NCBI RefSeq assembly: GCF_003967195.1
Contig: NZ_AP018725.1
Location: 558,001 to 622,000, forward strand
DNA from: Sulfuriflexus mobilis
Lineage (GTDB): Bacteria > Pseudomonadota > Gammaproteobacteria > AKS1
Direction of reading: 5' to 3'
Length of the DNA: 64,000 nucleotides
Within the stretch, counting starts at the first letter, position 1, and the number at the start of each line of letters is the position of its first letter. A program made the position numbers and the translations under genes. This document shows positions 17,196-35,500 of this stretch, in pieces. The notes below the pieces were generated by a model, which ran no database searches, had not been told where the DNA came from, and worked only from the letters and a program-made list of their open reading frames with translations.

Positions 17196-17663
17196 ATGAT
17201 TGACTTATCTATCAATGGCCGCCAATACAGCCTCCAGGTCGATGCAGATACCCCCCTATTGTGGGTACTTCGCGATCATCTGGGATTGACCGGCACTAAA
17301 TTTGGTTGCGGCGTTGCACAGTGTGGCGCCTGCACGGTACACGTTGACGGCAAACCCGTGCGTACCTGTGTGACACCCATTGGGGCATTGGCGGGCAGCC
17401 ATGTCTTGACCATAGAAGGCCTGGCGTCGGACGGCCTGCACCCCGTGCAGCAGGCCTGGCAGGAGATGGATGTGCCACAGTGTGGTTACTGTCAGTCGGG
17501 GCAAATTATGTCAGCAGTTGCCTTACTGCAAGAGACGGTGCTGCCGACCGATGCCGCCATCAATACCGCCATGAAGGGTAATCTTTGCCGTTGTGGTACT
17601 TACAAGAATATCCGCGCGGCCATTCATCGCGCCGCGCAGCTACAGGCACAGGCTAAGAAGTGA
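17196..17663 (+). CDS. 2Fe-2S subunit of a molybdenum hydroxylase (isoquinoline 1-oxidoreductase alpha type)
   Basis: Electron-transfer subunit with two 2Fe-2S domains in 155 residues. The plant-type ferredoxin cluster is bound by C38, C43, C46 and C58 ([17 protein letters not shown]). The second, helical domain uses C96, C99, C131 and C133 ([10 protein letters not shown] and NLCRCGTY). Length and arrangement match IorA and the small subunits of related aldehyde dehydrogenases. The gene is 22 bp before the large subunit. It has no signal of its own and would be exported with the Tat-targeted partner. Confidence 0.9.
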
Positions 17664-23152: not shown

Positions 23153-23218
23153 TACGTTACCCGTCATATCCTGTTTTATAGATATTCATGAAGGCATTTC
23201 AGGAATAGGAGAGAATTG

Positions 23219-24319
23219 ATGGCGATGTTGGCAACAGCGGCGGTTGTCCATGAAGCGAATGGACCGTTTTCATTTGAAGACGTTGAAATTGAAGATCTGC
23301 GTAGTGACGAAGTCCTGGTAAGGATCGAAGCCAGCGGTATTTGCCACACGGACCTTGTCGCGCAACGACTGACCCCGTTGCCTGCGGTTTTTGGTCATGA
23401 AGGGGCGGGGATTGTGGAAGCAGTAGGTTCCGCCGTCAGCAGGGTAAAAAAGGGTGAACGGGTAATCATCTCGTATCCATTCTGTGGCATGTGCGCCTCA
23501 TGCATGGAGGGCCATCCGTATCATTGTGACGATCATATGTCATTAGGTTTTGCGGGCACCCGTCATGATGGTAGTCACACCATCAAATCTAGTAGTGGCC
23601 CCATGTCAGGTGCTTTCTTTCAGCAGTCGTCGTTTGCCAGTTATTCGATTACGCCTGAACGAAATGTCATTCCCGTCGGTGCAGATCATATGCCGGCAAT
23701 GCTGGCGGCTATCCCGTGCGGCGTGCAAACGGGTGCAGGGTCTATCTTGAATACGTTGAAGGTGGGCCCAAAAGAAGGCCTGGCTGTATTTGGAGCGGGC
23801 AGTGTAGGTTTGAGTGCAATAATGGCGGGTAAACTGGTCGGTGCGTCACCCTTGATTGCGGTTGATGTTGTTGAAGAACGGCTCAACCTGGCCTATGAGC
23901 TCGGGGCGACCCACGTCATCAATGCCCGTGACGGCGATGTCGTCGCGCGTATTCTGGAAATCGCCCCTAAGGGGGTCAACTTTTCGTTAGAGACGTCGGC
24001 GAATGAACAGGCATTGAACGATGCGATTGGCTGCCTGAGTACGGGAGGGCAATGTGGGATGGTGATCGCGCCACACTTTGGGGAAACCTATCCGTTTTCG
24101 CCGACCGAAATATTCAGGCGGGCAGCCAGTTTGAAAGGCATTATACAGGGCTCATCGGTGCCCAATACATTTTTGCCAAAACTCATTGAATTTAACAGGC
24201 AAGGCAGATTCCCCTATGACCGACTGATAACCACCTATGATTTTTCTGATATTAACCGTGCGATAGACGAAATGAAAAATGGTAAGACTATCAAGCCGGT
24301 GCTTCTAATGGATAAATAG
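23219..24319 (+). CDS. zinc-dependent alcohol dehydrogenase, aryl-alcohol type
   Basis: 366-residue medium-chain dehydrogenase. Catalytic zinc ligands C42 (GICHTD) and H60-E61 (GHEGAG) are present. The structural zinc site has C89, C92, C95 and C103 (CGMCASCMEGHPYHC). The Rossmann motif GAGSVGLSA is near 190. Overall layout (HDGSHTI, FFQQSSFASYSI, CGVQTGAGSIL) matches NAD-dependent aryl/benzyl alcohol dehydrogenases such as XylB. AGGAGAGA precedes the ATG at 23219. The SRPBCC gene follows closely, so the two probably form an operon. Confidence 0.9.
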   Translation: MAMLATAAVVHEANGPFSFEDVEIEDLRSDEVLVRIEASGICHTDLVAQRLTPLPAVFGHEGAGIVEAVGSAVSRVKKGERVIISYPFCGMCASCMEGHPYHCDDHMSLGFAGTRHDGSHTIKSSSGPMSGAFFQQSSFASYSITPERNVIPVGADHMPAMLAAIPCGVQTGAGSILNTLKVGPKEGLAVFGAGSVGLSAIMAGKLVGASPLIAVDVVEERLNLAYELGATHVINARDGDVVARILEIAPKGVNFSLETSANEQALNDAIGCLSTGGQCGMVIAPHFGETYPFSPTEIFRRAASLKGIIQGSSVPNTFLPKLIEFNRQGRFPYDRLITTYDFSDINRAIDEMKNGKTIKPVLLMDK

Positions 24320-24352
24320 AAGTTGTATTCGAAATATGAAGGAGAACAGCAT

Positions 24353-24808
24353 TTGCAAAATGTATCAGTAAAGATTTACGTAAGCGCTATCATCAACGCC
24401 CCTGTGGAACAGGTATGGAATCGTGTAAGGAGTTTCTGTCCAACATGGCACCCGGACGTAGTCGATTGCCATATCGAGAATGACGAGGGGGATACTAGCG
24501 TTGGCTGTATCCGGAATTTCCACGTTCAGGATGGCGGTAATGTGCGCGAGCAATTACTGGCATTAACGGATGTGGGCCGAAGTTATTCATACACCATTAT
24601 TGAATCGCCGATGCCAGTACATGGTTACGTGGCTGAGCTTAAGTTGCAGCCTGTAACAGAAGGGGGTACTACCTATGCGCAGTGGACCGCGGACTTCGAA
24701 TGTCCGGCTGAAGAACGGGAAAACCTCGAAAATCTCATCCAAGGTATATTCAAGCGTGGCTTAGACACCCTGCAAACAAGGGTGCCAAAAAAAACCGCCA
24801 ATATGTAG
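24353..24808 (+). CDS. SRPBCC (START/Bet v1-like) family protein
   Basis: A 151-residue protein with the ligand-binding START-like fold, seen from YVSAIINAPVEQVWNRVRSF at the start, the WHP motif, LLALTDVGRSYSYTIIESPMPVHGY and a long C-terminal helix. No ATG fits; the TTG at 24353 is preceded by AAGGAG with 8-base spacing and is the probable start. Proteins of this type bind hydrophobic small molecules or act as cyclases. Immediately downstream of the alcohol dehydrogenase gene. Confidence 0.78.
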   Translation: MQNVSVKIYVSAIINAPVEQVWNRVRSFCPTWHPDVVDCHIENDEGDTSVGCIRNFHVQDGGNVREQLLALTDVGRSYSYTIIESPMPVHGYVAELKLQPVTEGGTTYAQWTADFECPAEERENLENLIQGIFKRGLDTLQTRVPKKTANM

Positions 24809-24874: not shown

Positions 24875-26023
24875 ATGGACAGTCAGCGCCGTAAAATACT
24901 ACGTTCAACACTAGCCTTGTCTGCAGGCTCTCTGGTGGGTCAAACCACCCTTGCAGGTGGGCTTGGTTCCTCTGCGCCCCCAACCGGTTTGAGGCGCATC
25001 GCCATTGAAGAGGCATTCGCAACACCCGAGTTATTTGAACAGTGGCAAACTGTACTGGCAGACCCGGCATCCCATGAACCCGGTTTTAAGGCACTGTATC
25101 GCCCATTTCTTAATAGCCCTGCGACCCGACCAATACGCGATAGGCTATTAGACCTAGGCGAGCTGCGTCTGAATGATATGAAAAATGCAGGTGTTGATTT
25201 CCAGGTGCTATCCATCACGGCGCCGGGCCTTCAGGTGTTCTCACCTGCTAAAGCCACATCGTTTGCCCAGAAGACCAACGATCGATTGGCAGAGGTGGTA
25301 CAGGAGCATCCACAGCGTTTTGCCGGGCTGGCCGCAGTGGCGCCACAAGCGCCGGGCCAGGCCGCACGGGAGTTAGAGCGGGCGATCACCTCGCTTGGCC
25401 TTAAAGGGGCGATCATCAATTCACATACGCAGGGCCGCTACCTGGATGATAAATACTATCGTGTGATCTTCGAAACTGCACAGGCACTCGATGTCCCGAT
25501 TTATTTGCATCCACGCACGCCATCGCCCGACATGATGGCCCCCTATTCGAACTATGGCCTTGAGGGAGCAGGGTGGGGATTTGCAGCCGAGACCAGTTTG
25601 CACGCCATGCGCCTAATCCTTAGCGGGCTATTCGATGAATTGCCCAGGTTGAAGATCATCCTGGGACACCTCGGTGAGGGACTGCCATTTTGGTTATCGC
25701 GAATCGATAGTCGTTTTGCTAACAAGACCTGGACAGATTTAGATAGCTCGGGAAGTTTGCGACGCCTGAAGAAGGCGCCAAGCGAATATATCAGGGATAA
25801 CTTTTATATCGCTACCAGCGGTATGCATTGGCACCCTGTGCTGATGTTTGCCCATTCGGTCATTGGTGCCGATCGCCTCTTATTTGCGGCCGATTATCCC
25901 TACGAATCGTCCGCAGAAGCGGTAAGACAACTCGATAGTGCACCAATGAGCGATAAGGATAAAAAGAAGATATATCAAACAAACGCTGAATCTCTATTAA
26001 AACTCTCAACCAGTATATCCTGA
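24875..26023 (+). CDS. Tat-exported amidohydrolase family protein
   Basis: 382 residues. The N-terminus MDSQRRKILRSTLALSAGS is a twin-arginine-like signal, unusual for this fold. The body is an amidohydrolase_2 TIM barrel: RIAIEEAFATPEL (the usual His-x-His is replaced by E-E-A), LHPRTPSP, LKIILGHLGEGLPF and LLFAADYPYES. The layout resembles gamma-resorcylate and other ACMSD-type decarboxylases, where Glu in the first motif is a metal ligand. It may decarboxylate or hydrolyse an aromatic compound in the periplasm. Exact reaction unknown. Confidence 0.82.
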   Translation: MDSQRRKILRSTLALSAGSLVGQTTLAGGLGSSAPPTGLRRIAIEEAFATPELFEQWQTVLADPASHEPGFKALYRPFLNSPATRPIRDRLLDLGELRLNDMKNAGVDFQVLSITAPGLQVFSPAKATSFAQKTNDRLAEVVQEHPQRFAGLAAVAPQAPGQAARELERAITSLGLKGAIINSHTQGRYLDDKYYRVIFETAQALDVPIYLHPRTPSPDMMAPYSNYGLEGAGWGFAAETSLHAMRLILSGLFDELPRLKIILGHLGEGLPFWLSRIDSRFANKTWTDLDSSGSLRRLKKAPSEYIRDNFYIATSGMHWHPVLMFAHSVIGADRLLFAADYPYESSAEAVRQLDSAPMSDKDKKKIYQTNAESLLKLSTSIS

Positions 26024-26409: not shown

Positions 26410-27336
26410 ATGATGACAGAAATTGCAGTATTAGGTCTGGGGGCCATGGGTTCACGAATGGCGCGTAAACTCATTGAGGCCGGCTATCGAGTGGTTGGAT
26501 ACAATCGTACCCCGGATAATGCCGGGATTTTAGAGGCAGAGGGCGTGCATTTCGCAAATAGCCCTAGAGAAGCTGCCGCACAGGCTGACATTGTAATCAG
26601 TATGGTTAGCGATGATGCCGCCTCACGTGCTATTTGGTTATCACCAGACTCAGGTGCGGTGCACGGATTGCGCCCTGGTAGTATTGTGATTGAATCGAGC
26701 ACGCTCTCACTTCAGTGGATACACGATCTTGGGACAGTCATTAGACAACATGGCGCGGAATTTCTGGACGCCCCGGTGGCCGGTTCCAGACCTCAGGCTG
26801 AGGCAGGTCAATTAATTTATTTCGTGGGTGGGTCGGAACAGGCCCTTGAAAGAACCCGCGAGGTGCTTTCCACAATGGGCGCTACGGTGCATCATGTTGG
26901 GCCGAATGGTTCCGGTATAATGATGAAACTCGCGGTCAATGCGATTTTTGGGATCCAGGTGGCGGCTTTCGCTGAAATGCTGGGAATGCTTGAAAAATGC
27001 GGTATTGCGATTAAGGATACGGTACAGATATTGAATGAATTGCCTACTACTAGCCCGGCGCTAAAGAATGTTGCGAATCAGATGGCGCAACAAGCCTTCT
27101 CGCCCCTTTTTCCAATTGATTTAGTGGAGAAAGATTTTCGTTATGTGCTGGAAGCCGCAATAGGTGCTGGCGCATTGGTGCCGACATCGAATACCGTCCA
27201 GGAAGTCTTTATGAATGCCAAGCTACAGGGTTACGGCGAGGACAACATTTCTGGCGTCGTCCAACTCTATACTTCTGAGTCGAACGAACAACGGGGAAGA
27301 AATCAAGAGGGCGTCTCGCAGAGTCAGGTTAACTGA
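26410..27336 (+). CDS. NAD(P)-dependent beta-hydroxyacid dehydrogenase
   Basis: 308 residues of the 3-hydroxyisobutyrate/tartronate semialdehyde reductase family. The Rossmann motif LGLGAMGSRMARKLIEAGY is at 8-26, followed by YNRTPDN. The substrate motif DAPVAGSRPQAEAGQL is near 119, and the catalytic Lys lies in GSGIMMKLAVNAIFG near 180. DLVEKDFRYVLEAA follows. GGAGACC precedes the ATG. It would oxidise a hydroxyacid or reduce a semialdehyde or imine. It is convergent with the LysR gene. Confidence 0.88.
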   Translation: MMTEIAVLGLGAMGSRMARKLIEAGYRVVGYNRTPDNAGILEAEGVHFANSPREAAAQADIVISMVSDDAASRAIWLSPDSGAVHGLRPGSIVIESSTLSLQWIHDLGTVIRQHGAEFLDAPVAGSRPQAEAGQLIYFVGGSEQALERTREVLSTMGATVHHVGPNGSGIMMKLAVNAIFGIQVAAFAEMLGMLEKCGIAIKDTVQILNELPTTSPALKNVANQMAQQAFSPLFPIDLVEKDFRYVLEAAIGAGALVPTSNTVQEVFMNAKLQGYGEDNISGVVQLYTSESNEQRGRNQEGVSQSQVN

Positions 27337-27373: not shown

Positions 27374-28285
27374 CTACTCCCACGGGAGGCCGGCGCGAAA
27401 CTTGTCCTTCATGAAATTGACAAATACGCGCACCTTAAGGGGCAAATAACTGCGTGATGGATATAACAACCACGCAGAGGAGTCAAATTCTGTGGCGGTA
27501 ACATCATAATCAGGAAACAGGTCTACAAGCGATCCATTTTCCAGTTCTTGCCAGACGACCCAGCGTGGTAATAGTACCAGGCCCATGTCAGCCATGGCAG
27601 ACTGTTTGAGAGAAAATGCATTGGAAATATAGCAACGCCCATGGACAGGTACCTCGTAGACCCGCCCCGTCTTATCACGAAACCGCCAACGGGAACTATA
27701 TCCTGGAAGCGGGAATAGCAGGCAATTGTGCTGCTCAATATTGGCGAGTGTTTCTGGCCTGCCGTATTTTTTAATATAGGCCGGACTTGCGCAAACGACA
27801 AACATGAGCTCGCACAATTGTGTCGCAACAAAGGAAGAATCTGTAAGTGGTCCCAGGCGTAGGGCAACATCTATGCGCTCGGATAGTAAATCCACCATGT
27901 GGTCGTCCATTGAAATTTCGAATGTTAAGTCCGGGTACAAGGTTGATAATTCTGGCAACAGAGGGATAAGGGTGATCTGACCGAAGGTAACAGGTGTGGT
28001 AATTCGTAGCGTACCGCGCGGGTGTTCGCTAAGATCAGCGGCCATCGAGTGCGCGCGTTCGAGCTCATCCACCAATGGCTCGACATGTTCGTAATAAATA
28101 ATACCAGCCTCAGTCGGTTCAAGGCGACGGGTGCTACGCTGGAACAACCTGACACCCAACTCTTCCTCGAGGGAGGAAATGGCGCGCGAAATAGAAGATG
28201 GCGCGACATCCTTCTCCCTAGCGACTGCGGCAAAACTACAACGACGCATGACTTCAACGAAAGTGCGTAATATCTCGATATCCAT
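27374..28285 (-). CDS. LysR family transcriptional regulator
   Basis: 303 residues. The winged helix-turn-helix at 1-60 (MDIEILRTFVEVMRRCSFAA, SSISRAISSLEEELGVRLFQRSTRRLEPTEAG) and the two-lobed effector domain (LSEHPRGTLRITTPVTFGQ onward) are both complete. The group with KVRVFVNFMKD near the end is common among regulators of quinone/azoreductase genes. It is divergent from the azoreductase gene with 105 bp between starts, the usual layout for a LysR and its target. Confidence 0.92.
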   Translation of the reverse strand: MDIEILRTFVEVMRRCSFAAVAREKDVAPSSISRAISSLEEELGVRLFQRSTRRLEPTEAGIIYYEHVEPLVDELERAHSMAADLSEHPRGTLRITTPVTFGQITLIPLLPELSTLYPDLTFEISMDDHMVDLLSERIDVALRLGPLTDSSFVATQLCELMFVVCASPAYIKKYGRPETLANIEQHNCLLFPLPGYSSRWRFRDKTGRVYEVPVHGRCYISNAFSLKQSAMADMGLVLLPRWVVWQELENGSLVDLFPDYDVTATEFDSSAWLLYPSRSYLPLKVRVFVNFMKDKFRAGLPWE

Positions 28286-29064: not shown

Positions 29065-29099
29065 AGCCTGGCCGCCTCAGCGTGGCCAGGCTTTTTTTT
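29065..29099 (+). terminator. terminator of azoR
   Basis: Stem AGCCTGGCC / GGCCAGGCT with a 10-base loop and eight T, 21 bp after the stop codon. Confidence 0.9.
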
Positions 29100-29324: not shown

Positions 29325-30881
29325 ATGAACGCTGATACTTTCGTTTTAGATGCTGAGCTAAATAAACTTGCGTTAGAGGCGCTTGATAATGAGGTAACAC
29401 AATCGTCTCCTGGTGAGCATGCAATTGCGCCATCGATTAGCAACAAGCCCTACGACAATCTTGAATCAGATGTGCTGCGTCACGCACATGAGAACGATGG
29501 AATCATCTCGGATTACCTAAATCATGGTGAGACGGTAGTTGGTTATGGATATGGGGGAAGTGAATCCATGACGCTCTTCGTCAAGAAAGAGTCAGGTGCA
29601 ATCATTGTGCGAAAAGTGCTTAGTGAGTTTCTGTTGACGACAAAATGGCATCGTGATGGCACGGATGTAATGCTGCACCCATGTGTCAAGGCAAAACGCC
29701 AAACACGATATCTGATGAATCTGCCGAACGCCGTAAAGTCTCTTTTGCCGGAGGTGTTGGATGTGTTAGAAAGGCAGAAGGTAGTGGCCGAACATGGTAA
29801 CAAATCCTACTATGAATTGTCATATGACATGTCATATATACCGGGTATTGAGTTAAGCAAATTTATACGGGAATATAAGCCTTCTCCAAAAGTTGTGGCG
29901 ATTTTATATGCCGAAATCTTCAGGTATTTGAGAGTCACGTTACATGGTCAGCGGCGTCGAATACCAAAAGGACCGACCCTGGAGCAATCCTATTTTTCCA
30001 AGATTGAAAGACGGCTGGGGCTATGTAAAGAAACATCGCCCATCACATTCTCAGATGCCTTATTAGAGGCTGATGAAATTATTCTGAACGGAAAAAGGCT
30101 GAGAAATGTAAAGACCTTGCTTCGGTGTTTCCGAGGCAATCCGGCATACAATAGAGTATTAGAACCACGATTCCACTCCCTGGTGGTCGGTGACACTAAT
30201 ACAGAGAATATAAAGATAGGCAATATCGAACCCCTGCTGAAAAACCATGAAGATGCAAGTTTTCACAACCCTCCGTTCACAGCAGAAGAACTCGAAGTTA
30301 AATTTCTTGATCCGCGGGCGATTGGGTTTCATGAAGAGGGGATTGACACGGGCCTGGATGACCCGATGTATGACAATAAGCCATGGCACAATAGTCTTGG
30401 GAACTATGACAAAATTCACGGAGAGCACTTTGATCTAACATTCGAGTTGCACGAGGGCGTACCGAAAATAGATATCAATTTCCATGATGAACACCCCTAC
30501 GTTCAATCGTATGATGGTATCGACGAATACTTTGCTGATGCTATAACGGCTGCTTGGGATTTGCATAATCCAGAGTCTGATGTGCTCAAGAATGATCCAT
30601 ATTGGTTGTTCCGTTTCGTCTTTGTAATGGGGACGCATTTTATGGCGATGCCGCCATATCATTTTGGTAAAACCAAGGAAGGTGAATTATTGGACAGTGT
30701 TGACCATCAGAAAAGGCCATTGGCGGTATATGCAGAAGGCATCAAGTGGCTAAACCTGGCGTTGGATATGCTAGAAGGAAAAATAGACAATGTATGGGGT
30801 ATTCCTGTGCCAAGGCTTAACGTAGGCGATGCGATGTCTTCGAATGCCTTCCGTGCTGGTAAGGCGACATTTGTCGCATGA
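29325..30881 (+). CDS. divergent kinase-like (APH-fold) phosphotransferase
   Basis: A 518-residue cytoplasmic protein that I do not recognise as a named enzyme. It has the order of motifs of aminoglycoside-phosphotransferase/protein-kinase-like folds: a glycine-rich turn GYGYGGSE at 73-80, a beta-3 Lys in IIVRKV (K97), a hinge-like YDMSYIPGIELSKFI near 168, and a catalytic loop VVGDTNTEN with D290 and N295. A metal-binding Asp follows in FLDPRA (D329), then DDPMYDNKPWHNSLGNYD, similar to the D-x-x-Y-D-x-A-K-x-x-H-S pattern of sugar-kinase-like relatives. The substrate is probably a small molecule. An AGAGGAG site precedes the ATG. First gene of a three-gene, AT-rich operon. Confidence 0.65.
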   Translation: MNADTFVLDAELNKLALEALDNEVTQSSPGEHAIAPSISNKPYDNLESDVLRHAHENDGIISDYLNHGETVVGYGYGGSESMTLFVKKESGAIIVRKVLSEFLLTTKWHRDGTDVMLHPCVKAKRQTRYLMNLPNAVKSLLPEVLDVLERQKVVAEHGNKSYYELSYDMSYIPGIELSKFIREYKPSPKVVAILYAEIFRYLRVTLHGQRRRIPKGPTLEQSYFSKIERRLGLCKETSPITFSDALLEADEIILNGKRLRNVKTLLRCFRGNPAYNRVLEPRFHSLVVGDTNTENIKIGNIEPLLKNHEDASFHNPPFTAEELEVKFLDPRAIGFHEEGIDTGLDDPMYDNKPWHNSLGNYDKIHGEHFDLTFELHEGVPKIDINFHDEHPYVQSYDGIDEYFADAITAAWDLHNPESDVLKNDPYWLFRFVFVMGTHFMAMPPYHFGKTKEGELLDSVDHQKRPLAVYAEGIKWLNLALDMLEGKIDNVWGIPVPRLNVGDAMSSNAFRAGKATFVA

Positions 30882-30931
30882 GTCACCACCACCCACGAAG
30901 ACCTCGTGAATCATGTATCGGATAAGCAGTT

Positions 30932-32347
30932 ATGCGTCTATTGCGACCAAACCCGTTTCGTGAGGCAGAATATGCCAACTATGAACTACTTCCTTCGTGG
31001 GCGCCTACAACGGCTACGAATGGCTTTGCAAGTCCATGGCATAAATATGTGCACGGCCTTGGTCTTGGGCACGGGATAACTGGCTACGATGCTAATAATG
31101 CTGACAAATTGTGCGCTCTGGATAAGATATTACTGTCCACACACCGAACGCAGTATCAGACATTCATTCACAGACTTCTGAATTGGGTCCTGCTGTGTGT
31201 CGAGACACACAATGCCGGGAGTCGTCGAAGGGAGGGGGAGTTTGTATTCGACAGGATCCTGGACGCACTGTCGGGACTGGATGATGGACTGGAACATGCA
31301 CGAGCATGTAGTTTGTTATTGGAATGTGTTTCGACGTTGAGGCAGGTGGAAACATACAAACATAGACTATTGCCCGCTTTGTTCGCCTCTCTGGCCGGTA
31401 TCGAGGATACGGAATTCGATACTGACAAAATTAGGTATGAAAAACAGCACTTGAGAATGAGTCTACTTCGAGTTGCTGCCAGGTATGAGTGGTCTGTTCT
31501 GCTTTCAAGAGTAAGTAGTGACAGTACTGACTATGTAAAAGAAGCTGTGGAATCACTCTCCAGGATGAGCGACTATTTCTATCAAGTACGATCTGCAGCA
31601 CTTCTTTTTACAACCATGGCCGACATGGGTCTAGGGGAACGAATTATTGGCGGCGGCCGGGATCATTTGTCGTGGATACTGGATGTTGTAGATCAACAGT
31701 TGTTAAAACCATCCATATATGAGCCCGATGGCGTGCATGAGAACAGAGACTATCTATTCTTTCCACTATCTTTGCTGATAAATGCAATAGTGCAAACGGG
31801 ATTGCTGAATTATCTGTCTTACAAACGTGATTGGCTTGAAGAACTAGATATGTTGTATAGATCATTGTCACCACGTTCGAGAGCATCGCAGTCGATGTTT
31901 TATGTTTTGGCATTAGAAAATATAGAGGTGTCAAAGCGCTACATACGGCATTCAAGGAAATTCTTACAAGGTTGCGTTCAAGATTATTTAGAGGTATCAG
32001 ATAGTAGAAGCATGGATGATTATTTGAGGATCAGCTATCTTATACATTTGGCCGGGCATGTGGGGCATTTAGACATTTTGCCGGAGTGCCTATGGGTGCG
32101 ACTAGAGGACAGGCTGAATAGAAATGAAATGAATTGTCAAGGCACGTCCCCATACGGTTCTTACTATATGGTTCTGGCATACACATTATCGTCCTATCAT
32201 CTTACAGGACATCTTAATGAACTGGATCTTGATGGCGCATACAAGAACTTGAAGGCGATAGATGCTAACCGTAATTGTGCCGACCTAAACGTTCCAAAAC
32301 TAGATTATGTAATTATTGATATCGCTTTACAGATGCGAGGCAAGTAG
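30932..32347 (+). CDS. unrecognised all-helical protein
   Basis: A 471-residue protein that matches no family I know. It has no signal peptide. Nearly the whole sequence consists of amphipathic helices of 15-25 residues, as in helical-repeat or alpha/alpha-barrel proteins. One feature stands out: GLGLGHGITG at 42-51, near the N-terminus, resembles the GxxHGxxG turns of LanC-like cyclases, but the WCYG and CHG zinc motifs of LanC are absent. Conserved-looking Trp and Tyr residues are frequent. It starts 50 bp after the kinase-like gene, so it is probably co-expressed with it and may be its partner or a second enzyme of the same path. Confidence 0.6.
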   Translation: MRLLRPNPFREAEYANYELLPSWAPTTATNGFASPWHKYVHGLGLGHGITGYDANNADKLCALDKILLSTHRTQYQTFIHRLLNWVLLCVETHNAGSRRREGEFVFDRILDALSGLDDGLEHARACSLLLECVSTLRQVETYKHRLLPALFASLAGIEDTEFDTDKIRYEKQHLRMSLLRVAARYEWSVLLSRVSSDSTDYVKEAVESLSRMSDYFYQVRSAALLFTTMADMGLGERIIGGGRDHLSWILDVVDQQLLKPSIYEPDGVHENRDYLFFPLSLLINAIVQTGLLNYLSYKRDWLEELDMLYRSLSPRSRASQSMFYVLALENIEVSKRYIRHSRKFLQGCVQDYLEVSDSRSMDDYLRISYLIHLAGHVGHLDILPECLWVRLEDRLNRNEMNCQGTSPYGSYYMVLAYTLSSYHLTGHLNELDLDGAYKNLKAIDANRNCADLNVPKLDYVIIDIALQMRGK

Positions 32348-32405
32348 CGGCCACCTGGTTTCAATATACGATTGAGAATCGATCGACGGAAAAGAGGACT
32401 CCAAG

Positions 32406-32849
32406 ATGGGAATGGGAATGATAATTAGCTTTGCCATAGTTGCAGGGGGGCTGGTTGCCATACAGGGTGCTGTCAATTCACAGCTTGGCACATTACTATC
32501 ACATCCACTTCAGGCCGCGTTCATTTCGTTCCTTGTAGGCACACTGGGGCTATGGATTATGGTATTAATCCTGAATGAGAGTCTGCCTCAATTGTCGCAA
32601 TTAAAAGCGATTCCGATAAAATTATATGTTGGTGGATTGTTGGGGGCAGCATTCATAACGGCTACTATCGTGCTCATTCCGAAGATTGGGGTGGCAAATA
32701 TGCTAATTGCCGCCCTGATAGGGCAAATACTCGGTTCTCTGGTGCTAGATCACTTTGGCCTGTTCGGTGTCCCACAAAAGCCCATAGAAATCAGCCGTAT
32801 GGCTGGTGCCGGATGCGTTGTACTGGGATTGTATTTTATCAATAAATAG
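32406..32849 (+). CDS. small DMT-type transporter (DUF606/YdcZ-like)
   Basis: A 147-residue membrane protein with five likely helices. It shows the DUF606 pattern: AGGLVAIQGAVNSQLGTLLSHPLQAAFISFLVGT near the start, then GGLLGAAFITATIVLIPKIG and IAALIGQILGSLVLDHFGLFG. Such half-size drug/metabolite transporters act as dimers and export small molecules. It is the third gene of the operon, 58 bp after the helical protein, with GAGG upstream of its ATG. It could export the product made by the two upstream proteins (inference). Confidence 0.85.
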   Translation: MGMGMIISFAIVAGGLVAIQGAVNSQLGTLLSHPLQAAFISFLVGTLGLWIMVLILNESLPQLSQLKAIPIKLYVGGLLGAAFITATIVLIPKIGVANMLIAALIGQILGSLVLDHFGLFGVPQKPIEISRMAGAGCVVLGLYFINK

Positions 32850-32856
32850 TGGCAAA

Positions 32857-33600
32857 TCATCCAGAATTGCAGATCTGATATGCGACGGCTCTTGCCACAG
32901 CCTGTTGTCTATTCACTACATCCAGCTTCTGGTAAATATTAGAAAGATGAAACTTTACCGTGCGCTCAGAAATAGACAGTATTGTTGCGATTTCCCAGGC
33001 AGTTTTTCCCTTGGTGGCCCACTCCAGCACCTGGGTTTCTCGATCTGTTAGGGGGCGCTTCAGGAATCGTTGAGTCTGAACGTCCAGGGTATCAGTGTGT
33101 AGCCGATGTAAATCTTTGCAGACATGGTTTAAGAGGATTTCTGTATGCCAAAGTAAGTTAGTTGTTTTTTCGCTGTTAGAAGCATTAACAAGCCTTACAT
33201 CGAACGCAAAGACAAAAAGCATATATTTATCTTGTGTGCCTCTCAGTGGCATCGGGTAAATAACACCCTGTGAATGTCCAAAGTAACGCATCGCACCAAT
33301 GCTAGAAAGGGAATTTTGTGCTGGGAGACGGTCCCAGCTATCGTCCCACATTACTGGCCTTTTATTCAACAACACTGAGCCAATAAGTGGATCGGAATTG
33401 GTGTCGATATTTTGCACATAAGCATGTAACCAATCTGCATCGAAACTGTGATTAATAATCTTTAAGATATCGACATCTTGGTCACTAGTACTAATATATA
33501 GAGCTGCGGCAGAGTGAAATTGGATGATGTTTTTGATAGTCTCAAATAACGAAGAGATGCATCCATCTATGACAGGCTGATAGCCGTTGAAATCGTCCAT
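32857..33600 (-). CDS. LuxR-type regulator with intact acyl-homoserine-lactone pocket
   Basis: 247 residues from the ATG at 33600, which has AAGGAG upstream; the longer frame to 33708 is less likely. The N-terminal autoinducer-binding domain keeps, in TraR spacing, W57, Y61, D70, P71 and W85, plus G112 (G113 in TraR). The C-terminal GerE-type helix-turn-helix has E188, L192 and G198 (LTDRETQVLEWATKGKT). Such a protein normally binds an N-acyl-homoserine lactone and then a lux box. No LuxI gene is in the window, so it may be a solo receptor. It is convergent with the DMT transporter gene (7 bp apart). Confidence 0.9.
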   Translation of the reverse strand: MDDFNGYQPVIDGCISSLFETIKNIIQFHSAAALYISTSDQDVDILKIINHSFDADWLHAYVQNIDTNSDPLIGSVLLNKRPVMWDDSWDRLPAQNSLSSIGAMRYFGHSQGVIYPMPLRGTQDKYMLFVFAFDVRLVNASNSEKTTNLLWHTEILLNHVCKDLHRLHTDTLDVQTQRFLKRPLTDRETQVLEWATKGKTAWEIATILSISERTVKFHLSNIYQKLDVVNRQQAVARAVAYQICNSG

Positions 33601-34172
33601 AATCCTACGCTCCTTGTTGTAAACAACATAATCATTCTTCAGCATTCCGCCAGAAAGCCAGTGGCGCCATCTGGGGGTGACAACACTGGAACTTTTAAAA
33701 CACCTCAATGTGTTCGATCAGTTCCGCCCTGGCTTCAGTAGTAACGACTGCCTTGGTTCGCCTGCGAAAGTAAAAAAGCTAACATAAAGGCCGGTAAAGG
33801 AGAGTGAGTAATCTCACATCGGCAGATAGAATAAGCCGGCGAAAATATCTTCCCTGACATAACGGGTCCTCCTATTTTTGGCACCCCACTATGAGGTATC
33901 GCCAGTACTACAGTGGGCCTGAATGAATAACCTACTTTTACTCGATTCTGGAATGGCTAGTTTCAGAACCAGCCATATGCCAGACTGCTATCGCATCATG
34001 GCTTGATATAGAAATTAATTCTAGTGACCACTTTTAAAGACTATAAGAAATCTTGGTGACAATAATGTGTCAGAGTTCAACTATTGAAACATATCCCAGC
34101 CATAGGCTACATAAGCCAAAATAGGTAGATTCTCTACGGTGGCGGTCGGGTATGAAAATCAGGTCCGGCTAG

Positions 34173-34516: not shown

Positions 34517-35500
34517 ATGGATCGCAACACCGATAACGAAGTCCTGCATACCGCCATCGGCTGGCTGGACGACGGCGCCGCCGTGACACTGATAACCGTA
34601 GTCCGTACCTGGGGCTCCTCCCCCCGGCGCCCCGGGGCACTGATGGCGATCCAGGCCGAGGGGCGCGTAGTCGGGTCCGTCTCCGGGGGCTGTGTCGAAG
34701 ACGACCTCGTGCAACGGGTCTTGCGCGGCGACTTTGAAGACCCGCGCCCGCAACAGATCGAATACGGCATCAGCACCGGCACCACCCGTCGTGTCGGCCT
34801 GCCGTGTGGGGGCCGCCTGGCGCTGGTAGTCGAGACCCTCCATAACGCCACCCAACTGCGCACCGTCCTGGCGCACATGACCGCCCGCGAGCGCATCGTT
34901 CGCCGGGTCTGTCTACAGACCGGCGCCACCCAACTGCAGCCCCCCAGCGACGACGACGACGCCCTACGCCTTGATGGCGACCACCTCTACAAGGCCTTTG
35001 GCCCCGCCTGGCGCATGCTGATCATAGGTGCCGGCGAACTGGCCCGACGCGTGGCACAACTCGCGCTCATGCTCGATTACGCCGTCACCCTCTGCGATCC
35101 ACGGCCGGAGTACGTCAACGGCTGGGAGGTCGAAGGCACCGTCCAGGTCAGCACCGCCCCGGAGACCTTCCTGCCAGCGTTTGCGCCCGACCCCCAGACC
35201 GTTGTCCTGGCCCTGGCGCACGCGCCACAGTTAGAAGACGCCGCACTGGCCGCGGCACTGCAGACCAAGGCCTTCTATATTGGCGCCCTCGGCTCACAAA
35301 AAAACCAGCAGGCCCGGCTGCAGCGCTTGCAACGCATGGGACTCAGCCCCCAGCAACGCGCACGTCTGCATGGACCGGTGGGCCTCGATATCGGCAGTCG
35401 TACACCGGCCGAAATTGCCATTGCCATTACCGCGGCACTGATCGCGGCGCGCAATACGGCCGCGCAAACACTACCACAGACCGCGCGTCAGCATGGCTGA
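34517..35500 (+). CDS. XdhC family molybdenum-cofactor maturation factor
   Basis: 327 residues. The N-terminal XdhC/CoxI domain has VRTWGSSPRRPGALMAI and GSVSGGCVEDDLVQ near 28-62. The C-terminal Rossmann domain has MLIIGAGELARRVAQLA near 170 and YIGALGSQKNQQARLQRL near 253. XdhC proteins bind molybdenum cofactor, help its sulfuration and insert it into xanthine-dehydrogenase-type enzymes. The likely client is the hydroxylase 14.6 kb upstream. GC-rich, unlike the AT-rich block just before it. A MocA-like remnant overlaps its stop. Confidence 0.92.
   Translation: MDRNTDNEVLHTAIGWLDDGAAVTLITVVRTWGSSPRRPGALMAIQAEGRVVGSVSGGCVEDDLVQRVLRGDFEDPRPQQIEYGISTGTTRRVGLPCGGRLALVVETLHNATQLRTVLAHMTARERIVRRVCLQTGATQLQPPSDDDDALRLDGDHLYKAFGPAWRMLIIGAGELARRVAQLALMLDYAVTLCDPRPEYVNGWEVEGTVQVSTAPETFLPAFAPDPQTVVLALAHAPQLEDAALAAALQTKAFYIGALGSQKNQQARLQRLQRMGLSPQQRARLHGPVGLDIGSRTPAEIAIAITAALIAARNTAAQTLPQTARQHG

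Follow-up and report, generated by a model that had tools for sequence, protein, structure and literature searches.

What do two proteins that fall outside the family libraries searched, encoded one behind the other and followed by a small transporter gene, do together in Sulfuriflexus mobilis? A preliminary description of the window (the whole stretch of 64,000 nucleotides that was analysed) had read the three genes as a minimal make-and-export path for a phosphorylated or phosphate-activated small molecule. The explanation that we find best, with a probability of roughly 0.45, is that the first two genes, ORF1 and ORF2, encode an enzyme unit within a biosynthesis-and-export cluster that is uncharacterised and whose set of parts is new. 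Searches of the open-licence literature found no paper on these genes.

Gene layout and predicted folds of the two proteins

The genes and the signal that precedes them are as follows.

29065..29092, + strand: intrinsic-terminator-like hairpin, 11-bp stem and T run, between the preceding gene and ORF1
29325..30881, + strand: ORF1 (518 aa), predicted APH/choline-kinase fold; K97, G289-D290-T-N-T-E-N295, D329-P-R
30932..32347, + strand: ORF2 (471 aa), predicted closed alpha/alpha toroid, partner of ORF1
32406..32849, + strand: ORF3 (147 aa), small inner-membrane exporter of the DMT_YdcZ (DUF606) type; PF04657 E 9.6e-43

The three co-directional genes span 29325-32849 and are spaced by 50 and 58 nt, as first described, and the assignment of the third to the DUF606-type transporters was borne out with 146 bits against a PF04657 cut-off of 24. 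A GAGGAG ribosome site precedes the ORF1 start and the strong hairpin parts this gene from the preceding one, so that ORF1-3 likely form a separate transcript. The AT-richness attributed to this DNA is real but mild, with a GC content of 0.448 compared with 0.53 +/- 0.04 for 85 stretches of 3.5 kb sampled from this genome, 5.9% of which are equally low. The label of housekeeping genes given to the flanks was wrong, because the left-hand neighbours are members of the conserved cluster described below.

The motif order of an APH-type small-molecule kinase, which had been noticed in the first protein, proved exact: K97, D290, N295 and D329, corresponding to the N-lobe Lys, the catalytic Asp with its Asn and the metal-binding Asp, are invariant in 49 aligned sequences. 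The AF2 model of ORF1 (pLDDT 81.5) has the bilobal kinase fold that had been suggested, matching 3ats (Rv3168) with a VIA Z of 17.0 over 312 residues at 4.0 A, 7nb2 (choline kinase) with 16.6 and 8zic (PsiK) with 16.3, while many choline kinases and APHs match at Z 14-16.6. Judged by this model, ORF1 is nearest to the choline/APH-type small-molecule kinases. The gathering score of PF01636 was not reached by ORF1, and two of 52 family members matched it weakly (best E 0.025); we therefore file the protein as having a kinase-like fold, not as a PF01636 member. Neither ORF1 nor ORF2 has a family in Pfam, NCBIfam or PADLOC, and single-sequence PDB searches were also empty for both. A PHROGs search of ORF1 gave one weak match, to a family of unknown function; despite this match a phage origin is not supported, because none of the phage records or viral contigs searched encodes a relative.

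ORF2, described at the outset as a helical protein of no known family, is modelled (pLDDT 87.4) as a closed alpha/alpha toroid of about nine hairpins; plasmid-derived rows were left out of the alignments used for structure prediction. The model matches the designed toroid 6xr1 with a Z of 16.5 over 375 residues and natural proteins, namely LanCL1, GH105 and transcobalamin, with Z 8-9, the LanCL1 match (Z 8.2, 268 residues) being weak when taken alone. Conservation peaks at the N-terminal ends of the inner helices and is higher at these ends than in the outer helices (permutation p 0.003), and Y169, R220, G233, P278, Y369 and G378 are invariant in 46 rows. An early guess at a LanC or terpenoid-cyclase fold was thus right as to fold class, but membership of the LanC or class II terpene cyclase families is not supported: the 46 rows contain no conserved Cys and hence no Cys-Cys-His zinc site, and the alignments lack a DxDD motif or conserved Asp cluster. 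Within the clade, identity is about 33% for ORF2 against about 60% for ORF1, and this much weaker conservation, which counts against our preferred explanation, could mean that ORF2 serves as a binding or scaffold protein instead of a catalyst.

Pairing, fusions and the acyltransferase of relatives

The kinase-toroid pair is rare and is co-inherited across at least four phyla. ORF2 adjoins or lies near ORF1 in nearly all of 54 loci from Actinomycetota, Pseudomonadota, Cyanobacteriota and Omnitrophota, so the homologues of the two proteins do occur together. For two loci that apparently lacked ORF2 it turned up when the genome was inspected; one Crocosphaera assembly, however, has ORF1 and no ORF2, which counts against our preferred explanation. 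The ORF2 of Cedecea looked interrupted, but what breaks it is a string of N in the database sequence. ORF1 was found in one of 398 Pseudomonadota genomes and ORF2 in one of 369 genomes of the class, in both cases the S. mobilis genome itself. The clade that contains the window, clade B, is recovered in the trees of both proteins (SH-aLRT 100 for ORF1 and 99 for ORF2).

Outside clade B, a FabD-like acyltransferase stands before ORF1, either as a separate gene or as the leading part of a fusion, which is one reason why the word minimal no longer fits the proposed path. Giant proteins of Omnitrophota carry acyltransferase, kinase and toroid in a single chain, and in a Thiotrichaceae locus the toroid is fused to the acyltransferase. 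On an Acinetobacter plasmid of 12 kb, the cassette is accompanied by little besides replication and toxin-antitoxin genes. The acyltransferase profile matches FabD with E 4e-12, and the Ser-His dyad, S124 in a GxSxG context (GES) and H261 in HSxxM, is invariant in 44 rows. Position 25 after the serine, which we take to be that of the Arg binding the malonyl carboxylate in FabD, is F149 (more than 90% conserved), so the acyltransferase of the relatives is probably not a malonyl enzyme. Searches of the window genome and of clade B genomes for a hidden acyltransferase gave only weak FabD-like matches, among them a 317-aa FabD-like protein in the window genome.

Two exporter families recur beside the pair: the DMT type in clade B, where an ORF3 homologue lies within the same cluster in five loci (L007-L010 and L015), and an MFS drug-efflux type in clade A, near the pair in 28 of its 48 loci. 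This recurrence upholds the exporter of the path first proposed.

The conserved cluster and explanations of its function

In clade B the pair is embedded among about ten genes that are conserved as a cluster, which is the other reason against a minimal path. This cluster includes oxidation and decarboxylation enzymes, an SRPBCC protein, a hydroxyacid dehydrogenase, a LysR regulator and the DMT exporter. One locus (L010) has a ten-gene order nearly identical to that of the window, and L005, L007-L009 and L015 have most of the genes. The window genes concerned, with their neighbours, are listed below.

17196..17663, + strand: 2Fe-2S subunit of a molybdenum aldehyde oxidoreductase; NCBIfam aldehyde/xanthine DH small subunits E 1e-36 to 2e-45; homologues of 61-66% in the clusters of L005, L007-L010 and L015
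17686..19872, + strand: molybdenum subunit of aldehyde oxidase with Tat-type signal (RRTF); 8gy3 aldehyde dehydrogenase large subunit E 1.6e-76; in-cluster homologues 55-63%
23216..24319, + strand: benzyl-alcohol-type Zn alcohol dehydrogenase; 1f8f benzyl alcohol DH E 5.7e-94; 62-74% identity in seven other clade B loci
24323..24808, + strand: SRPBCC/polyketide_cyc2 protein, kept in the cluster; PF10604 E 2.5e-25
24875..26023, + strand: LigW-like amidohydrolase_2 decarboxylase with twin-arginine-like N-terminus; 5-carboxyvanillate decarboxylase 4inf E 7.5e-86
26410..27336, + strand: 3-hydroxyisobutyrate/tartronate-semialdehyde-type dehydrogenase; TIGR01505 (NCBIfam) E 8e-53; also in the L005 and L010 clusters
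27374..28285, - strand: LysR regulator; PF00126/PF03466; same position in L010, present in L005
28355..29044, + strand: FMN-dependent azoreductase/quinone reductase (Flavodoxin_2); PF02525 E 8e-48; 53% homologue in the L005 cluster
32857..33708, - strand: LuxR-type regulator with weak autoinducer-binding domain; GerE E 1.3e-22, Autoind_bind E 1.6e-5; not seen as a cluster member in other loci
34517..35500, + strand: XdhC-family Mo-enzyme maturation factor; NF045664 E 2e-47; homologue ends two Nostoc clusters (L008, L015)

Genes for a GST and a peroxiredoxin lie in the same stretch. In the LigW-like decarboxylase, E45, H212, H265 and D340 align to the metal site of 4inf and are invariant in four cluster copies; by analogy with 5-carboxyvanillate decarboxylase we presume them to be metal ligands. 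Taken together, these enzyme families predict that a hydroxymethyl group is oxidised to the acid stage and then lost by decarboxylation.

We infer that the whole is biosynthetic and that the cluster probably makes, trims and exports a small molecule. ORF1 and ORF2 would act as one enzyme unit, in which ORF1 would phosphorylate a small molecule at the expense of ATP, like choline kinase, PsiK or APH, and the phosphorylated or a neighbouring intermediate would enter the ring mouth of ORF2, with its conserved Tyr, Arg and Glu, and be transformed there, most likely with loss of phosphate in an elimination, cyclisation or condensation. The remaining enzymes would convert a hydroxymethyl (benzyl-alcohol-like) group to the aldehyde, the acid and finally the decarboxylated product, and ORF3 would export the product. 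Since aldehyde oxidase and decarboxylase carry twin-arginine-like signals, oxidation and decarboxylation may take place in the periplasm, after export.

The oxidase, dehydrogenase and decarboxylase families are common in catabolism too, which counts against this explanation, and the window cluster contains no recognisable scaffold-making synthase. The same stretch, with its benzyl alcohol dehydrogenase, aldehyde oxidase, LigW-like decarboxylase, azoreductase, GST and peroxiredoxin, might instead oxidise and decarboxylate an aromatic alcohol or aldehyde that the cell imports or encounters and that ORF1 and ORF2 activate by phosphorylation, with the DMT transporter, GST, peroxiredoxin and azoreductase relieving stress. 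We consider such a catabolic or detoxifying role less likely, however, as the stretch read has no recognisable ring-cleavage dioxygenase and the pair of the larger clade A is accompanied by an acyltransferase, in many cases also by an MFS exporter, but not by such catabolic-type genes. It is improbable that ORF1 inactivates an antibiotic, as APH or macrolide kinases do, while the exporter pumps the drug out: the APH fold, the drug-efflux type of the clade A exporters and plasmid carriage would suit such a cassette, but clade B has a chromosomal ten-gene cluster, and we know of no resistance kinase with a constant toroid partner or an in-frame fusion to a FabD-like acyltransferase. Least probable is a peptide-modifying system in which ORF1 acts as kinase on a precursor peptide and ORF2 as cyclase, for although LanKC/LanL enzymes likewise combine a kinase with an alpha/alpha toroid and LanCL1 is among the fold matches, ORF2 has no zinc site, ORF1 is closest to small-molecule kinases, and the small ORFs of the window match none beside the homologues, a comparison that is only suggestive, its all-against-all list being dominated by shadow frames of neighbouring genes.

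Two families absent from the libraries searched prove to be parts of one putative enzyme unit in unrelated bacteria, paired with hardly an exception and in places fused. Such a unit, with its clear catalytic signatures, is a compact target for new phosphorylation-dependent small-molecule chemistry, and its neighbours lead to a prediction that can be tested, namely oxidation and decarboxylation of its product or substrate. More tentatively, the FabD-like acyltransferase with its degenerate second copy, the choline-kinase-like kinase and the toroid may constitute a new natural-product enzyme system, one machine without a ketosynthase, found in at least four phyla and in some cases on plasmids, as a cassette of two genes; the branch of the window would then be one that lacks the acyltransferase and is joined to a molybdenum oxidase/decarboxylase module.

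Comparison with known systems

ORF1 shares with APH, choline kinase and PsiK (PF01636 clan) the predicted fold over some 300 residues, the catalytic Asp-Asn, the metal Asp and the beta-3 Lys, whereas identity is only about 12%; its family differs from them in having its own blocks (the catalytic loop GDTNTEN and DPRAIG...YDNKPWHNS..YD) and, for the majority of lineages, in its link to an acyltransferase. That fusion partner resembles the malonyl-CoA:ACP transacylase FabD in profile and in its invariant Ser and His, and unlike FabD it carries a degenerate second copy followed by the kinase. The window decarboxylase retains the metal-site residues of LigW 5-carboxyvanillate decarboxylase but has a twin-arginine-like N-terminus, and its neighbours are the aldehyde oxidase and the kinase-toroid pair, not lignin catabolism genes. 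Finally, ORF2 has in common with alpha/alpha toroid enzymes (LanC, GH105, cellobiose epimerase-type enzymes and terpene cyclases) a predicted ring, closed and built from helical hairpins, that has conserved residues at one mouth, while, unlike these enzymes, it matches none of them in sequence and has a conserved Tyr/Arg/Glu/Trp set of its own.

Organization and base composition of the three-gene unit

The window sequence bears out the positions and the 50- and 58-bp gaps that a preliminary description had assigned to three genes:

29325-30881 (+), ORF1, 518 aa, predicted APH/choline-kinase fold
30932-32347 (+), ORF2, 471 aa, predicted toroid
32406-32849 (+), ORF3, 147 aa, DMT_YdcZ exporter

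A strong terminator-like hairpin (29065-29092) and a ribosome site upstream of 29325 suggest that ORF1-3 form a separate single transcript. Their GC content is indeed low, 0.448 versus 0.53 ± 0.04 in 3.5-kb stretches from the rest of the genome (5.9% of the sampled stretches are equally low). The genes left of ORF1 grade from 0.57 to 0.46, so no abrupt island boundary falls at 29 kb. The XdhC gene (34517-35500; GC 0.667, GC3 0.762) lies among low-GC neighbours far below these values, as if it differed in origin from ORF1-3. A LuxR-type regulator gene (32857-33708), with a weak autoinducer-binding domain, is convergent to the exporter gene; no homologue of it was seen in related clusters.

Predicted folds and co-occurrence of ORF1 and ORF2

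ORF1 matched no family in Pfam, NCBIfam or PADLOC. In its AlphaFold2 model, built on an alignment of 49 sequences (pLDDT 81.5), the kinase-like fold previously read from motifs was recovered: top Foldseek matches were protein-kinase-like folds, including a long match to 5-methylthioribose kinase, and a second fold comparison placed Rv3168, choline kinases, PsiK, APHs and macrolide kinases at Z 14 to 17. K97, D290, N295 and D329 are invariant across the alignment, and a glycine-rich GGSES motif is nearly so.

ORF2, also without a family match, was modeled as a closed alpha/alpha toroid (pLDDT 87.4); a designed single-chain toroid ranks first among its matches (Z 16.5 over 375 residues, 4.3 Å). 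Natural toroids (cellobiose epimerase, GH105, transcobalamin, LanCL1, C3d) lie far lower in Z and are weak matches, because Z under about 13 may reflect just a common helical-protein arrangement. With helices numbered by order and their inner/outer alternation taken from the toroid fold, conservation at N-terminal ends was 2.63 bits in even-numbered (inner) versus 1.73 in odd-numbered (outer) helices (permutation p 0.003); conserved candidates are W36, Y169, E170, R220, Y369 and Y417. Within clade B, the window's branch, ORF2 evolves far faster than ORF1 (about 33% versus 60% identity; end branches 1.71 for the toroid versus 0.58 for the kinase), and the window copy deviates at the otherwise near-invariant residues 28, 47, 135 and 332.

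A scan of 84,980 species, one genome each, found ORF1 relatives at 54 loci (43-63% identity), and a toroid gene adjoins or lies near nearly all of them. Toroid genes seemingly absent for loci L029 and L052 were located elsewhere in their genome data, the absence at L032 is an assembly gap, and one Crocosphaera is the sole ORF1 assembly without a toroid gene. The window genome is the only carrier of ORF1 among 398 Pseudomonadota genomes and of ORF2 among 369 genomes of its class; ORF1 is absent from three congeners. In Omnitrophota a single chain of >3000 residues unites acyltransferase, kinase and at least two toroid domains, and on a Thiotrichaceae contig the acyltransferase and toroid are fused; such fusions provide the strongest evidence that these parts act jointly.

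These Omnitrophota proteins (L012:5285-14674, L014:4991-14665; >3100 residues) run from an N-terminal unknown domain through acyltransferase and kinase to two or more toroid domains. Myceligenerans salitolerans (L049:13609-15327, minus strand) has a second toroid homologue beside the first, on the opposite strand, and in a Xenococcaceae cluster a gene for a 758-aa protein (L009:3164-5440), judged by eye possibly a spondin-type secreted protein, sits between ORF1 and ORF2.

Two clades and their gene neighbourhoods

Clade A, the larger branch, includes Actinomycetota, enterics, acetic acid bacteria, Halomonas, Chromobacterium and a 12-kb Acinetobacter plasmid. Here ORF1 makes up the C-terminal portion of a ~1240-residue protein, or is a separate gene placed after the one for the N-terminal portion. 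That N-terminal portion is a FabD-like acyltransferase (profile E 4e-12) in which Ser and His are invariant; behind it lies another acyltransferase-like stretch, degenerate and of weak resemblance. An MFS exporter is nearby in 28 of the 48 loci. The plasmid, pRW1 of the insect isolate Acinetobacter larvae (L004; NZ_CP018141.1), carries fused acyltransferase-kinase and toroid genes and, beyond this cassette, little except genes of replication and toxin-antitoxin systems; its acyltransferase-kinase gene spans the record start and is missing from the plasmid gene table.

Clade B (SH-aLRT 100 in the ORF1 tree, 99 in the ORF2 tree) comprises the window, six cyanobacteria, and one gamma- and one alphaproteobacterial assembly. 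Weak matches aside, no acyltransferase adjoins the pair or occurs elsewhere in these genomes. Because the acyltransferase-bearing Omnitrophota group with clade B under midpoint rooting, a root that may not be the true one, loss in clade B would be the simplest reading.

Locus L010 shares the window's gene order: 2Fe-2S subunit, Mo subunit, alcohol dehydrogenase, SRPBCC, decarboxylase, hydroxyacid dehydrogenase, LysR, ORF1, ORF2, DMT exporter. Most of these genes are also present, differently ordered, in Nostoc, Scytonema and Xenococcaceae, and an XdhC homologue is found in two of the Nostoc clusters. The alcohol dehydrogenase falls close to benzyl alcohol dehydrogenase (E 6e-94), the Mo enzyme is nearest a bacterial aldehyde dehydrogenase and the amidohydrolase is nearest LigW 5-carboxyvanillate decarboxylase; from these assignments, we predict the chemistry R-CH2OH -> R-CHO -> R-COOH -> R-H. 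Decarboxylases encoded in the related clusters share 58-62% identity with the window copy, and no match listed for other genomes or plasmids exceeds 47%. Twin-arginine-like signals at the start of the Mo subunit and decarboxylase suggest that their steps may be periplasmic. The genome has a second molybdenum aldehyde-oxidase-like large subunit (L064; G000:C1:2786292-2788421), 47% identical to the cluster copy.

Proposed biosynthetic reading and comparison with known systems

The make-and-export idea of the preliminary description is retained, but in a form wider than three genes. We favour biosynthesis over catabolism because in clade A the pair is accompanied by an acyltransferase and frequently by an efflux pump, but not by the oxidation genes, and because two exporter families appear repeatedly; any reaction assigned to the ORF1-ORF2 pair would be inferred. 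Our search of the open-licence literature found no paper on this gene set, whose novelty lies in two families absent from the family libraries searched and in their architecture.

ORF1 differs from APHs in the block DPRAIG...DDPMYDNKPWHNS.G.YD.IH, which is among its most conserved parts and unusual for APHs. For ORF2, the LanC/terpenoid-cyclase comparison held as to the toroid, but neither LanC zinc ligands nor a DxDD motif was found in the alignment. The window amidohydrolase, in turn, keeps the metal-site residues of LigW, and the clade A acyltransferase has Phe at the position of the malonate-binding Arg of FabD.
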